Part shown: in pieces, positions 45,003 to 50,427 of the stretch | Layout: the number at the start of each line of letters is the position of its first letter | Numbering within the stretch: position 1 is the first letter of the stretch | From: Acidobacteriota bacterium | Lineage (GTDB): Bacteria; Acidobacteriota; Terriglobia; Acidiferrales; UBA7541 | Length of the DNA: 54,175 nt | NCBI GenBank assembly: GCA_003223325.1 | Contig: QHYS01000028.1 | Coordinates: forward strand, 103,787 to 157,961 | Direction: 5' to 3' | Made by a program: the position numbers and the translations under genes | Notes under the pieces: generated by a model | Told to the model about the DNA's origin: nothing | Seen by the model: the letters and a program-made list of their open reading frames with translations, nothing else | Database searches by the model: none

Positions 45003-45482
45003 CGGTCCCTTAGTACAATTGGTAGCCCACTATGAAGAAGCTACGTTTAGGATACTTGACAGTCAATTCTTGTCTGTCTTGGCTTTCCCAATGAGGCAAT
45101 CACTTGCTCTCTACGTTTACAATTCGAAACCCAATTCGCCGCGCGGCAACCGTCCAAAGAGGCGGGAGTGTTCGCAAGATGCCCAGAATTGGCGCTGGGT
45201 TTTGAGGACGATAAATCTAAACGTTGCGGCACGGAGGGTACGGGATGGTTCGTTGGGGAGGGGGTTGCGTCCGGCTGGAGTTGTGACCCAGCCTTAACTC
45301 AAATCGCCCGGCCACGCAGACGTTCGGGAACATACAGAAATCGTACGATCACAGCTTGGAAAAGGCGAAGGTTTGGTCACAATAACAGTTCGTTCCTAAA
45401 GCAAGCGGTGTTGCGTTAACCCGATAATGCGTGGAATTCAAATCGTTGCAATCTAAAGTTTGGATTTGACTCCTCCTTTCAC
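45003..45482. other. Gene-free stretch
   Basis: About 480 bases upstream of the GGDEF-like gene. Short frames on both strands lack domains and ribosome-binding sites. It presumably holds the promoter of the exopolysaccharide locus. I see no hairpin of note here; the structured repeat begins at 45483. Confidence 0.4.
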
Positions 45483-45603
45483 AATCTGCAAACTGCGCGC
45501 GGAGTCGACGAAGAAGTCGCTCTGATTCCCTCTTTCGACGCTGAAACGAGAGGCGCTATCTTGCATTACGTTTGTCCGGCTGAGTCATCTCGGACACGAC
45601 GCA
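45483..45603 (+). repeat. Structured repeat, copy 1 (two six-base-loop hairpins)
   Basis: A segment of about 121 bases sharing with 47005-47122 the blocks AATCTGCAAACT, GTCGCTCTGATTCCCTCTTT, CGACGCTGAAACGAG, and TCTCGGACACGACGCA. Two neighbouring hairpins can form: GAG(T)CGAC-[GAAGAA]-GTCGCTC (45502-45522) and CTCTTTC-[GACGCT]-GAAA(C)GAG (45530-45550), both with a six-base loop and G at loop position 4. A third small stem, GCTGAG-TCAT-CTCGG, lies near the end. Copy 1 runs straight into glutamine synthetase coding sequence. It could be a leader RNA, or simply a dispersed repeat. Confidence 0.6.
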
Positions 45604-45809
45604 AAGAAGCCGCGAAGGTCAAGAGCACCCCGGGCTCTCTTGGAGAGGTGCTCGATGCTCTTGAGAAAGATCACGACTGGCTGCTCGTAGGCGATGTCTT
45701 TACGCCAGACATGCTTGAAACCTGGATCACCTATAAGCGGGATCGCGAACTGGCTCCCGTAAACCTCCGGCCGGTGCCGCACGAGTTGTTCTTATATCTT
45801 GATCTCTGA
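45597..45809 (+). pseudogene. glnA: Glutamine synthetase C-terminal remnant
   Basis: The frame from about 45597 reads RRKEAAKVKSTPGSLGEVLD, ALEKDHDWLLVGDVFTPDML, ETWITYKRDRELAPVNLRPV and PHELFLYLDL, the last 70 residues of a type I glutamine synthetase, where the family typically has EEAAKVKQ-PGSL-EALDALE and RLRPHP-EF-LYYD. The catalytic domain (about 400 residues) is absent. Upstream the frame enters the structured repeat directly, as if a deletion had joined a leader to the last sixth of the gene. The remaining open frame starts at TTG 45561 but would make no enzyme. Confidence 0.85.
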
Positions 45810-46022: not shown

Positions 46023-46159
46023 TTGCCGGCACACAATAGCACGCCTCCTCCCCCAATTGAAATTAGGGGTTTCCGGCGCTCGGAAGGATTTATGAACAGC
46101 CAGGGTTAACCGAACAGGATTGGGAGTAGCCCGGTTCGCATTTCCGCCGCCAAGAATTG

Positions 46160-46186
46160 ACGCCCGTAGCGGGCGTTTGTTAGTTT
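46160..46186 (+). terminator. Intrinsic terminator-like hairpin before the ANTAR gene
   Basis: ACGCCCG (46160-46166) and CGGGCGT (46170-46176) pair perfectly around TAG and are followed by TTGTTAGTTT. It is 138 bases after the small upstream gene and 27 bases before the first possible start of the ANTAR gene, so it could end the upstream transcript or act as an attenuator in the leader of the ANTAR gene itself. Confidence 0.6.
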
Positions 46187-46212: not shown

Positions 46213-46932
46213 GTGTCGATACCGGTTGAATTCAACGTTGGCCAGGACCGAGCTGTAGCCGGTGGCGAGCTACAGATGATAGCGATCCGCCGCTACGGGA
46301 TAGCCCTCGTATTCGTGGCGGTTGCGTTCGTCTCAACTCTCCTCCTGCAGCGTTTCTTTCCATATCCGTTCCTTTTCGTGTTCTTTGCCGCTGTGATGGC
46401 CAGCGCCTGGTTCGGCGGCTCGAAGCCAGGATTTTTGGCGGTCCTGGTTTCAACGCTTCTGGTCGATTATTTCTTTGTCCCGCCGTTCCGTACGTTCGCG
46501 GTCGATGCTAGCGATGTTGCATATTTTGGTTCGTTCATCGCCTGTGCCGTGGTAGCAAGCTGGGTGAGCTCCTCGATGCGAAGAACCGAGGAGGCCCTTC
46601 GGCAGGCTCGTGACCAACTGGAAATCCGCGTCGCCGAACGGACCGCTGAGCTTCAGAAATCAGTTGGTGAGCTGGAGGAAAAGGAACGGCAGCGCCTGCT
46701 ATTGGAGAATGAAAAGTCCGCACTCGAGACCGAAAGGTCCGCCCTCTCGGATAAACTTGAAACGCGAAAGGCTGTCGACCGCGCTAAAGGCATATTCCAA
46801 CGCGACTTAAGGATCAGCGAGGAAGAAGCCTACCGAACGCTGCAGCGGGAGAGCCAGCAACGGCGGAGGTCAATGCGCGATATCGCAGAATCCGTCATTT
46901 TGAACGATAATCTGAAGCGCGGTACCCAATAG
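46213..46932 (+). CDS. Membrane protein with DUF4118, coiled coil and ANTAR domain
   Basis: A 239-residue protein (GTG 46213; ATG 46276 also possible). Four hydrophobic helices (about 29-46, 52-68, 73-88, 102-119) form a DUF4118/KdpD-type sensor region, marked by PFLFVFFAAVMASAWFGG and VDYFFVPPFRTFAV. A long coiled coil (about 122-185) leads to an ANTAR domain (about 183-232: AVDRAKGIFQRDLRISEEEA, YRTLQRESQQRRRSMRDIAE). ANTAR domains bind hairpins with six-base loops and act as antiterminators. There is no histidine kinase or receiver part. This would place an RNA-binding regulator at the membrane. It lies next to a glnA remnant and two structured repeats. Confidence 0.85.
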   Translation: MSIPVEFNVGQDRAVAGGELQMIAIRRYGIALVFVAVAFVSTLLLQRFFPYPFLFVFFAAVMASAWFGGSKPGFLAVLVSTLLVDYFFVPPFRTFAVDASDVAYFGSFIACAVVASWVSSSMRRTEEALRQARDQLEIRVAERTAELQKSVGELEEKERQRLLLENEKSALETERSALSDKLETRKAVDRAKGIFQRDLRISEEEAYRTLQRESQQRRRSMRDIAESVILNDNLKRGTQ

Positions 46933-47004
46933 GCTCGAAGGCAAGCCCCACGCTTCGAACGGCATCAGTCGCTTCCAAGTTTTCACGTTGACTCTTAACC
47001 TAAA

Positions 47005-47122
47005 AATCTGCAAACTTCCGGCTAGACCGACCGTTAGGTCGCTCTGATTCCCTCTTTTCGACGCTGAAACGAGGGTCCGCTTTACGATTCTTTTTTCGCT
47101 GAGCCGTCTCGGACACGACGCA
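47005..47122 (+). repeat. Structured repeat, copy 2
   Basis: A diverged copy of 45483-45603. Its second hairpin is stronger than in copy 1: CCCTCTTTTC-[GACGCT]-GAAACGAGGG (47050-47075), ten positions per arm with one T-C mismatch and the same six-base loop. The first hairpin has changed to CGACC-GTTA-GGTCG (47028-47041). The compensated stem changes argue that the second structure is kept. The repeat ends 140 bases before the start of the next gene. Confidence 0.6.
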
Positions 47123-47261
47123 GTGTCCAAACTAATCACATTCTAGGCTCGATGAAGAGTCGTTAGGTTAGCTGGGTTGGCTCTTTCTGTTGTCCGGCAG
47201 CTCGCGGCCAGCCCGGGAGACTCCGCGGACGGTTGACATTTCAGGGAGCCTATCCGCAAAG

Positions 47262-48125
47262 ATGCTGACGTTGAATACGACCCTCGCCAACTTTATCAAA
47301 ACCCAGGCCATGCCTCCTTTCGGCGTGCTGTGGGATTTAGCCAAGCAGGTCTCGAAGCTCATTCCTGAAACATGGGACAGATTCAGTTTTCGCCGCTTTT
47401 GGGGAGAAGGAATCCTGTCCACGGACGCCTATTTTGTGATGGACAGCTACGAGAATGTCCGGCTCAGAAATAACTTTAGGAATGCGGAGCCGTCTCCCGC
47501 CTCAGAAGAGCCGGAAGCATTCATTGGCACAGAAATCGTTCGTGGCTGTTTCTGTCCGCAGGCCGCCGCCATGCTCACTGCATTATTCCTGCGGCATTCG
47601 GGCAAAGTGCTGCGCATTGCGACCGACACCGAGCCAAGCCTCAAACGAGACTCTATCTTGATTTGTTATGGCACTCCCGACATGAACTTCAAGACCTTTG
47701 ACATTGAGGCCTGGTCGGGAAGCAGCTTGTGCCAATTCTTATTCACGGCTAGCGGCCAGCGTGCATTTCGGCTGGCTGGACAACTTCATTCCACTGAGAT
47801 CCGTGGGGGCGTAGTCTATGACAAAGCTATCGTCCTGAGGCTTACCAATCGCCAGGAGTCCAATCACCCTCATGTAGTCTGTGCCGGGCTCACGGAATGG
47901 GGCAGCCTGGCCGCAGTCCACTATCTGACAAAGAACTGGAAAGAGCTGCGTAAACGCTTCGATAGCTTTGGGCAGCGAAGAGACTTTTGTGTGCTCCTCG
48001 AAGTCCAGTGTGCGCAATTCGAGAACGTAAGAGAACTTACTTCAGTGGTTTGGTGGGAGCCACGGGTCAGCGCCGAGCCCCATCCTGGTGTCAAGCCATG
48101 TCTGATCCCGATGCGACATTTCTGA
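47262..48125 (+). CDS. Conserved protein of unknown function
   Basis: A 287-residue protein from ATG 47262. Conserved-looking segments are WDRFSFRRFWGEGILSTDAY, FVMDSYENVRLRN, FIGTEIVRGCFCPQAAAMLT, VLRIATDTEPSLKRDSILIC, FKTFDIEAW, and the distal GVVYDKAIVLRLTNRQ with HVVCAGLTEWGSLAAVHYLT and NWKELRKRF. In shape it recalls uncharacterised acidobacterial proteins in which D-R-F-S-F, DCE and CAGLGEWG motifs are conserved. There is no signal peptide or transmembrane helix. No function can be given. Confidence 0.7.
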   Translation: MLTLNTTLANFIKTQAMPPFGVLWDLAKQVSKLIPETWDRFSFRRFWGEGILSTDAYFVMDSYENVRLRNNFRNAEPSPASEEPEAFIGTEIVRGCFCPQAAAMLTALFLRHSGKVLRIATDTEPSLKRDSILICYGTPDMNFKTFDIEAWSGSSLCQFLFTASGQRAFRLAGQLHSTEIRGGVVYDKAIVLRLTNRQESNHPHVVCAGLTEWGSLAAVHYLTKNWKELRKRFDSFGQRRDFCVLLEVQCAQFENVRELTSVVWWEPRVSAEPHPGVKPCLIPMRHF

Positions 48126-48165: not shown

Positions 48166-50427
48166 ATGACACCCGATCCCCTCCTCACAAAAACTCCAAG
48201 TACCGCCCGTCCGGTTGCCAGAGTTCTCGTGGCTACCACGGCCATGCTCAGCTTTATCTCCTTTTGGCGGGCCGCCGCTATCGTTCTTAATGACATGGGC
48301 TCCTCCGCCTTCTATGCCGGTGCTATCGCTGAGGAGGCCTTTGGCAAAACTGCGCCCTGGTTCATTCTGGCCATCATGCTCTTCGCCTACGCCGTTCGCG
48401 CCCTGTACATGGAGAGCTGCAGCATGTTTGTGCGTGGCGGAGTCTACCGCGTCGTTAAGGAAGCCATGGGCAGCAGGCTTGCCAAAATCTCCGTGTCCGC
48501 GCTGATGTTTGACTATATTTTGACTGGGCCGATCAGCGGCGTGTCCGCGGGCCAGTACCTTACCGGATTCTTGAATGATTTCTTCCGATACGCCCATTTG
48601 AATATTGTCCTGCCGGGAAATCTCACGGCCGCACTTTTCGCCATTGCTGTCACGCTCTATTTTTGGTGGGAGAACGTCAAAGGCATTCCCGAATCCAGCG
48701 GAAAAGCGCTGCGCATCATGTACATCACCACTGTCATGGTTGTGCTCATGCTCGCCTGGTGCGGCTATACGCTCTGGATGCGCGGCGCTCATCTTCCGCC
48801 ATGGCCCGAGCCGTCCAATATGCATTTCTCCGATCAGGCGCTCGGCTGGCTGCGTCACACAAACTGGCCATATACCATCGGCCTAATCGGCATTTTCATC
48901 GGATTGGGGCATTCGGTGCTCGCCATGAGTGGCGAGGAGACTTTGGCTCAGGTCTACCGCGAGCTCGAGCATCCCAAGATCCCCAACCTGAAAAAAGTCG
49001 GCTTCATCATTTTCGCTTACAGCCTCGTGTTTACCGCCGGCGTCTCTTTCTTTGCCGTGATGATCATTCCAGACGCAAACCGGCCCCAGTATTTCGGAAA
49101 CTTAATCAGCGGCCTGGCGATGAATTTCGTGGGGCCTTACACCCTGCGTCTGGTATTCCAGGCATTCGTCGTTCTGGTGGGCGTGCTGATGCTCGCGGGA
49201 GCAGTGAACACCGCAATTGTGGGATCGAATGGTGTGCTCAACCGGGTTTCTGAAGACGGCATTCTGCCGCAGTGGTTCCGCCAGCCGCACCGCCGCTTCG
49301 GAACTTCTTATCGCATCATCAATCTCGTTGTCGGCTTGCAGATCGCCACAATCATCTTGAGCCGCGGAAATATCTTCCTCCTGGGCGAAGCTTATGCATT
49401 CGGTGTCATGTGGAGCTTCGCCATGAATAGCGCGGCAGTCCTGGCCCTCCGTTATAAGCAGCCCGGATACCGCGAATTCCGCGTCCCGTTGAATCTGACA
49501 ATCGGAGGTGTGGAAGTCCCGGTAGGCTTAGTCCTCATTACGCTTACGCTGCTCGGCTTGTGTACGATCAATCTTTTCACCAAACAAATCGCCACCATCT
49601 CCGGCCTGATCTTTACTGCTGCCTTCTTTGCGACCTTTACGATTGCGGAAGGAATTACCAGGAAACGTGATACCGCAGGAGCAGAACTCGACCAGTTCAA
49701 TGTCGCCTCGCGTACCGAGCTGAGCACCGCGACGCTGGGCGTTCGTCCCAGCAATGTCTTGGTCCCCGTGAGCAACTACCACGCTCTCTATCATCTCGCC
49801 GCGGTGCTCGATCGCGTTAAGACCGAACGGCGGGATATCGTGGTGCTCCATGTTCAGGTCTTGCAGCGCACCGGCTCTAGCGAGGTGGAATTTGAGACCG
49901 ACCAGTTGTTTGGCAGCATCGAACAGTATCTCTTTACTAAAGCCCTTTCGATGGCCGAACAGCGCGGCAAGCCCGTTCGCCTTGCGGTGATGGCTGCGAA
50001 CGATTTGTGGGACGGCATCCTGAGAGCGGCGGTCAATCTGCAATCGTCAACAATCGTCCTTGGGCGTTCTACGAAGATGAGCCTCGCCGAACAGGCCCGC
50101 CAATTCGGCCTTGCGTGGGAAGGGCTGCCTGATCCGCGGCCCCCGTTTAACCTGGAAATCTTTACGCCCCAGGGTGAGCACGAGTTCTTCCTTCTCGGTC
50201 CGCACGCCCCGAACCTGACGAGGAATGAGGTAAACCTCGTCCACCAGCTCTGGCTGCGGCTGGGCGATCTCGTCAGGCCTGAGGAATTGCACCATCACGA
50301 TGTTGTGCACTTCGCCCTGAATGAGGTCAAACAGGAGCTGGCGCAAGGCAAGGAACAGGACGTCGCTCAACGCCTAAGGGAGCACTTGATCCAGAACAAA
50401 GCGCAACGCCAGCAGCCTCCGTCCTAG
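48166..50427 (+). CDS. APC-family amino-acid permease with USP-like C-domain
   Basis: A 753-residue inner-membrane transporter. The first 500 residues hold about 12 helices of the APC superfamily (VLVATTAMLSFISFWRAAAI, GVYRVVKEAMGSRLAKISVS, IGLGHSVLAMSGEETLAQVY). The last 240 residues are soluble and begin with SNVLVPVSNYHALYHLAAVL and IVVLHVQVLQ, then SSTIVLGRSTKMSLAEQARQ, resembling a universal stress protein-like domain, as in several permeases where it may bind nucleotides and gate transport. The second half (about 650-750) is rich in charged helix. Substrate and regulation are unknown. Confidence 0.9.
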   Translation: MTPDPLLTKTPSTARPVARVLVATTAMLSFISFWRAAAIVLNDMGSSAFYAGAIAEEAFGKTAPWFILAIMLFAYAVRALYMESCSMFVRGGVYRVVKEAMGSRLAKISVSALMFDYILTGPISGVSAGQYLTGFLNDFFRYAHLNIVLPGNLTAALFAIAVTLYFWWENVKGIPESSGKALRIMYITTVMVVLMLAWCGYTLWMRGAHLPPWPEPSNMHFSDQALGWLRHTNWPYTIGLIGIFIGLGHSVLAMSGEETLAQVYRELEHPKIPNLKKVGFIIFAYSLVFTAGVSFFAVMIIPDANRPQYFGNLISGLAMNFVGPYTLRLVFQAFVVLVGVLMLAGAVNTAIVGSNGVLNRVSEDGILPQWFRQPHRRFGTSYRIINLVVGLQIATIILSRGNIFLLGEAYAFGVMWSFAMNSAAVLALRYKQPGYREFRVPLNLTIGGVEVPVGLVLITLTLLGLCTINLFTKQIATISGLIFTAAFFATFTIAEGITRKRDTAGAELDQFNVASRTELSTATLGVRPSNVLVPVSNYHALYHLAAVLDRVKTERRDIVVLHVQVLQRTGSSEVEFETDQLFGSIEQYLFTKALSMAEQRGKPVRLAVMAANDLWDGILRAAVNLQSSTIVLGRSTKMSLAEQARQFGLAWEGLPDPRPPFNLEIFTPQGEHEFFLLGPHAPNLTRNEVNLVHQLWLRLGDLVRPEELHHHDVVHFALNEVKQELAQGKEQDVAQRLREHLIQNKAQRQQPPS

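Follow-up and report, generated by a model that had tools for sequence, protein, structure and literature searches.

Introduction

The ANTAR regulators characterised so far are, to our knowledge, all soluble. Regulators that are bound to the membrane and act as one-component transcription factors include CadC and ToxR, and these bind DNA. In the EutV-RNA structure, which shows how an ANTAR domain reads RNA, the guanine at position 4 of the loop (G4) is flipped out and stacks against Tyr164, with Arg142, Lys149 and Glu160 keeping it in place; Lys143 and Lys147 contact the RNA backbone (PMC8934654). In the known ANTAR targets, the adenine at loop position 1 (A1) is conserved, and EutV binds less well when it is mutated (PMC3369931). 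ANTAR-RNA control has been predicted elsewhere for Amt, PII and glutamine synthetase genes (PMC3369931). Here we describe a DUF4118-ANTAR protein and a candidate RNA target beside its gene, both encoded in a 54,175-nucleotide stretch of DNA (the window) from a soil acidobacterium.

Results

Domain organization and predicted topology

The gene at window positions 46213-46932 (+) encodes a protein of 239 residues, whose start may be a GTG at residue 1 or an ATG at residue 22, the choice between them being unsure. The protein was characterised by frame translation, Pfam, PDB matches, hydropathy, orthologue alignment, dN/dS and AlphaFold2. It is made up of a DUF4118 module (residues 28-131), a linker (about 120-180) and an ANTAR domain (177-229). 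Pfam matched the first as PF13493 (E 5e-20, 71.7 bits with a cut-off of 28.4, profile positions 1-106 of 107) and the last as PF03861 (E 2.5e-18, 66 bits with a cut-off of 27.3, profile positions 2-54 of 54), and no further domain in the protein exceeded its cut-off. There was no HisKA or HATPase match in the protein, by which a KdpD kinase would be recognised, and no Response_reg match, by which an EutV-type response regulator would be. The best PDB sequence matches to the C-terminus were the ANTAR proteins 1s8n (E 9e-10) and 6wsh (E 1e-8), and the best to the N-terminus was KdpD 2ksf, a weak match (E 0.012).

Hydropathy analysis identified four hydrophobic stretches, at about residues 26-48, 50-70, 70-92 and 98-120. 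Arg and Lys sit at the helix ends expected to be cytoplasmic, and the charges fit a topology with both protein ends in the cytoplasm. We infer that the DUF4118 helices are inserted in the inner membrane. AlphaFold2, run with a thin alignment (mean pLDDT 65.8, pTM 0.25, membrane part of low confidence), predicted helices at residues 9-48, 53-67 and 70-88, an unbroken helix at 100-198 that leads into the ANTAR fold, and a last helix at 203-237; pLDDT in the linker was 84-91 from about residue 131 to 190.

These results bear out the layout that an earlier note on this DNA had proposed. The DUF4118 module with four hydrophobic helices was confirmed by the Pfam match and the four hydropathy stretches, the coiled coil that the note placed between DUF4118 and ANTAR appears as a long helical linker within the predicted helix 100-198, and a significant ANTAR match was found where the C-terminal domain had been claimed (residues 183-232). 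The claimed absence of a kinase or receiver domain also held in the Pfam search. By Pfam and hydropathy, the layout is that of a membrane sensor joined to an RNA reader, neither a kinase nor a response regulator.

Conservation of the protein and of its RNA-contact residues

Six other full-length DUF4118-ANTAR proteins were aligned and were 62-87% identical to the window protein. Among the orthologues dN/dS was 0.06-0.18, which indicates purifying selection, and the window ORF is therefore not a chance frame. The linker is conserved except that the window protein and L034, its nearest relative, have exactly seven additional residues there; because this insertion equals one heptad, the coiled-coil register would be kept, which weakly suggests in-register dimerisation via the linker. 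One relative (G003) has the gene broken across two frames. In G001 the gene (L074 1111-1845 = L034 8001-8735) resembles the window gene in its 5' part and the other paralogue in its 3' part, leader and downstream gene (paralogues compared: window 46213-46932 and L068 12078-12734), and is an apparent product of recombination between the two paralogous loci.

The architecture singled out by the earlier note is real and conserved but narrow in distribution. Among the genomes examined, nearly all of them draft metagenome assemblies, full-length forms were present in only one acidobacterial family, and no match spanning both DUF4118 and ANTAR was obtained (E 1e-12) in 299 genomes from the phylum of a Paraburkholderia or in 299 from the phylum of a Desulfosporosinus.

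Alignment with EutV placed R142, K143, K147, K149, E160 and Y164 opposite R185, K186, R190, K192, E203 and Y207 of the window protein, and all six residues were invariant in 7/7 orthologues. The peripheral EutV contacts R168, M172 and R177 were not kept, being Q, Q and S in the window protein. From these residues, the window ANTAR domain is predicted to bind hexaloop RNA.

A conserved leader RNA follows the gene

A repeat search identified an element of about 140 bases on both sides of the gene, at 45466-45603 upstream and 46988-47122 downstream. By BLAST and alignment, the downstream promoter and leader copy was found behind every related DUF4118-ANTAR gene examined. A promoter-like site, TTGACT-N17-CAAACT, lies ahead of the leader at 46988-47016 (+), and the relatives' leaders keep TTGACT and a CANANT-like second hexamer; the site is recognised from this conservation, since a consensus promoter scan found no site at these positions, the second hexamer of the site being weak.

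The leader RNA element itself (model R1; 47044-47178, +) is a candidate ANTAR target with three hexaloop hairpins: hairpin 1 (47050-47075, +; loop GACGCU), hairpin 2 (47111-47128, +; GGACAC-GACGCA-GUGUCC) and hairpin 3 (47146-47161, +; GGCUC-GAUGAA-GAGUC). In nine leaders behind DUF4118-ANTAR genes, the stem of hairpin 1 showed compensatory changes on both sides at 6 of its 10 pairs, with a covariation score of 0.253 that was reached by 0/500 shuffles. Hairpins 2 and 3 hardly vary among the nine, and RNAalifold recovered the same three hairpins. ANTAR-target RNA was defined as a tandem of at least two stems with six-base loops joined by a linker of 2-25 bases; hairpins 2 and 3, separated by about 18-20 bases, form such a tandem, with hairpin 1 farther upstream, about 35-40 bases from hairpin 2.

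The loops of 15 leaders were then tabulated. All 42 loops scored carried G at position 4, the sole position invariant across all three hairpins; hairpin 3 was not recognised in 3 of the 15 leaders, and the search pattern for hairpin 1 preferred G4, although hairpin 1 loops were also read off the alignments. No loop (0/42) carried A at position 1, where G or C predominated and U was rare. The missing A1 counts against reading the leader as a canonical ANTAR target. An Rfam scan of the window returned two tRNAs only, so the leader corresponds to no described RNA family.

Two other explanations of the element were rejected. A mobile repeat was discounted as the exact core pattern has one copy in the genome, and a REP-like repeat was discounted as the copies stand at operon starts and have stems with compensatory changes.

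A possible terminator and the genes around the leader

An alternative hairpin and possible terminator at 47154-47186 (+), exclusive with hairpin 3, was identified from folding energies. Some of the hairpin 3 loop, together with the 3' arm, is taken up in this structure, which continues into a U-rich run and folds at -10.5 kcal/mol compared to -6.8 kcal/mol for hairpin 3. The L075 orthologue has a stronger counterpart (-20.4 kcal/mol) with a U-rich tail, TTTTTCTGTTTTTG. As a general rule, a terminator over hairpin 3 was not upheld, being credible only in the window and L075; because the other leaders have no clear counterpart, antitermination is likely in some leaders and unproved in general. 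About 70% of published ANTAR-target candidates also have no overlapping terminator (PMC3369931). A separate terminator-like hairpin, GACGCCCGTAGCGGGCGTT, lies just 5' of the ANTAR gene at window positions 46159-46177, in a region that is 81-90% conserved in the orthologues.

The first gene 3' of the leader (47190-48125, +; 311 residues, start uncertain) is conserved, with a paralogue at L068 13003-13911, and its product gave no Pfam or NCBIfam match. The same was true of a gene of 166 residues ahead of Amt (L068 4459-4959). The next gene encodes an amino-acid permease (AA_permease_2) of 753 residues (48166-50427, +), and this is presumed to be the target operon.

The upstream copy of the promoter and leader (45466-45603, +) is truncated, with the promoter and hairpin 1 whole and hairpin 2 cut to half, and was matched by model R1 at 45521-45676 (E 0.0077). 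Directly 3' of it, a frame at 45561-45809 (+) carries the C-terminal 66 residues of a glutamine synthetase (Gln-synt_C, E 9.8e-7, profile positions 281-342 of 344). At the corresponding place in L074 (2480-2785) there is a larger glutamine synthetase remnant, recognised by eye. The remnants behind the truncated leader indicate that a leader-bearing glnA probably once stood upstream of the ANTAR gene, and that the regulator outlasted the loss of glnA.

Leaders are linked to ANTAR genes and Amt operons

The nine leaders were used to build a covariance model, which was run on the 61 genomes of the relatives' search and matched 8 of them, including six leaders that had been left out of model building. 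Three of these six, in the window's genus, precede Amt operons (L068 3890-4015, E 5e-9; L083, E 5e-10; L097), and the other three adjoin GAF-ANTAR genes, ahead of Amt (L080, E 4e-9; L079, E 6e-6; L078, E 8e-5). In L038 a weaker match falls in the interval from GAF-ANTAR to Amt. Genes for Amt, PII and permeases were identified by Pfam, except in L038, where a sequence motif was used. In 8/8 matched genomes the leader is linked to ANTAR genes or to the Amt operons of ANTAR-carrying genomes. When 396 genomes of the phylum were searched with strict filters, which may lose weak matches, the only one matched was the window's own genome. In the Amt operons, the gene starts up to about 440 bases 3' of the leader.

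Loop position 1 divides the leaders. Each G1-type leader in the set compared directly follows a short DUF4118-ANTAR gene, and 5/6 of the Amt leaders near GAF-containing ANTAR genes are C1-type, which hints that the two types reflect matched protein-RNA pairs.

Relation to split systems

In several relatives the parts of the window protein are found in separate genes of a single cluster. The gene order in L038 is DUF4118-kinase, FixJ-like (REC-LuxR) regulator, GAF-ANTAR, leader, Amt and PII; L078 has the same order up to Amt, with no PII in the stretch, and L080 has DUF4118-PAS-kinase, REC-GAF-ANTAR, leader and Amt. Over residues 17-167 the window protein shares 64% identity with a DUF4118 kinase encoded next to Amt in G006, and over residues 165-236 it shares 65% identity with a GAF-ANTAR protein of that genome. 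The window's genome encodes on another contig a DUF4118-GAF-ANTAR protein of 412 residues (L068 10374-11612), adjoined by a second DUF4118-ANTAR protein, near Amt and amino-acid permease genes. Judged from these sequences, the simplest account seems to be that the DUF4118 sensor of a kinase was fused to a GAF-ANTAR protein and that the GAF domain was then lost. In gene trees the short-form ANTAR domains cluster (83/87); the DUF4118 tree has no clear branching, and it therefore does not settle the order and number of fusions.

A different fusion was seen in many Acidobacteriaceae-like genomes (L099-L121, e.g. L100 52-1734 and L099 1480-3216), in which a HemD-like (uroporphyrinogen-III synthase) domain, named by eye, precedes GAF-ANTAR in a protein of about 560 residues. 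In L081 the HemD-like and GAF-ANTAR parts are adjacent separate genes.

Discussion

Proposed mechanism and alternative explanations

The reading that we favour, and consider fairly probable, is that the window protein evolved from a split system and is a one-component ANTAR regulator, bound to the membrane, that controls nitrogen-transport genes. The domains, selection, conserved RNA-contact residues, leader structure and gene order on which this reading draws were computed; the signal, the dimer switch and antitermination are steps that we infer. The four-helix DUF4118 sensor in the inner membrane would signal via a coiled coil continuous with helix 4, which would pass the signal to a dimeric ANTAR domain, and the dimer would bind leader RNAs ahead of nitrogen-transport operons by their G4 hexaloop hairpins. 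The target of the window protein would be its own downstream amino-acid-permease operon and, jointly with the DUF4118-GAF-ANTAR paralogue, the Amt ammonium-transporter operon. As in known ANTAR systems, hexaloop binding would let the downstream genes be expressed, so that under nitrogen scarcity transcription, or possibly translation, would continue. Judging from the gene neighbourhood, the signal may be ammonium or the state of Amt, or else an ion, for example potassium, for which KdpD is a precedent. The earlier note's suggestion that leader-RNA recognition is brought to a membrane sensor is strengthened by the candidate leader behind the gene and ahead of Amt operons, and further by conservation of the EutV residues that bind G4. 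Points against this reading are that the membrane tether could hold the ANTAR domain off nascent RNA, that no loop has A1, that a terminator over hairpin 3 is credible in just two leaders, that three outer EutV contacts have changed, that the modelled membrane part has low confidence, and that nearly all the data come from draft metagenome assemblies, with a broken gene in G003.

Tentatively, the protein may be more specifically a membrane receptor, made by joining a kinase's sensor to an RNA-binding domain, that responds to ammonium or to the state of Amt. It would capture transporter-gene leader RNAs at the membrane without phosphorylation, using a shifted hexaloop code with G or C in place of A1. 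This is possible, if doubtful; if true, it would couple nutrient sensing to transcription or to co-translational insertion of transporters.

The anchor might instead keep the ANTAR domain inactive or off the RNA until proteolysis or loss of a partner frees it, the switch being one of location and not of conformation. Membrane capture of antiterminators has a precedent, as BglF captures BglG at the membrane, and in the AlphaFold2 model one long helix leads to the C-terminal ANTAR domain, so that cleavage would release linker and ANTAR as an intact unit. However, neither a cleavage motif nor a protease gene was identified, and a linker that is conserved but for a shift of exactly one heptad is more in line with mechanical coupling than with a site of cutting. 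We regard such sequestration as unlikely.

It is quite unlikely that the protein acts by keeping the leaders of membrane-protein mRNAs at the membrane, for co-transcriptional insertion or mRNA protection, and not by antitermination. The operons identified after intact leaders do encode membrane transporters (Amt and amino-acid permease), most leaders have no consistent terminator over hairpin 3, and the distance from leader to gene start in the Amt operons would suit this role. Yet in the split relatives this leader accompanies GAF-ANTAR proteins in which no membrane domain is seen, and it thus works without a membrane tether; the leader also preceded the glutamine synthetase remnant, which derives from a soluble enzyme.

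Another improbable explanation is that only the GAF-ANTAR or DUF4118-GAF-ANTAR paralogue reads the leader, with the short DUF4118-ANTAR protein as its partner, decoy or competitor. A DUF4118-GAF-ANTAR protein is encoded in the same genome, and split relatives have GAF-ANTAR with the same leader, but the short form keeps the whole G4 pocket, and the G1-type leaders all directly follow the short gene, with the Amt leaders near GAF forms mostly C1-type. Finally, the leader might be a riboswitch, or be read by a different protein, and stand beside ANTAR genes through operon history. This would fit its place outside the described Rfam families and its non-canonical loop position 1, but is very improbable, as the three six-base loops of the leader share as sole invariant G4, the base read by ANTAR domains, and it is tied to ANTAR genes or their genomes' Amt operons in all eight matched genomes.

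Comparison with known systems

Under the favoured reading of a one-component membrane-bound regulator, the closest counterparts include the ANTAR antiterminators EutV, NasR, AmiR and NasT, with which the window system shares the G4 pocket residues, a helical dimer linker, a tandem hexaloop leader and nitrogen-related targets. In contrast to them, the window protein has a four-helix membrane sensor and no receiver, NIT domain or ligand-binding partner, and its leader has three hairpins, with G or C (rarely U) and not A at loop position 1. The earlier note's list of known ANTAR proteins was incomplete, as GAF- and PAS-ANTAR proteins are known (PMC8934654). One-component GAF-ANTAR and PAS/LOV-ANTAR (PAL) proteins likewise have sensor, coiled coil and ANTAR in one chain, and the window ANTAR part is closely related to the GAF-ANTAR proteins of acidobacteria (about 50-69% identity). 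In the GAF- and PAS/LOV-ANTAR proteins no membrane domain is seen, whereas the window protein has a membrane domain as its sensor and no longer a GAF domain. KdpD and other DUF4118 kinases share the four-helix DUF4118 followed by a coiled coil, but the window protein has no histidine-phosphotransfer or ATPase domain and its output would be RNA binding.

No paper joining ANTAR and DUF4118 was found in the literature library searched, in keeping with the earlier note's view that the layout has no known characterised precedent. What is probably new here is the membrane-anchored ANTAR layout with a candidate RNA target, the ANTAR kind itself being already known. The system would show a two-component pathway collapsing into one protein and, since split, intermediate and fused forms keep the same leader, it offers a direct test of sensor control over RNA binding and of a shift in ANTAR loop specificity. 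The Kuenenia Amt-histidine kinase similarly ties membrane sensing to ammonium transport and signalling, although there Amt itself senses and the output is a kinase (PMC5764959). As in CadC and ToxR, a membrane sensor is joined directly to a nucleic-acid-binding domain, but where those bind DNA the window protein would bind RNA, and a membrane-anchored ANTAR protein with its likely RNA target alongside would carry the idea of a one-component membrane regulator from DNA to RNA.
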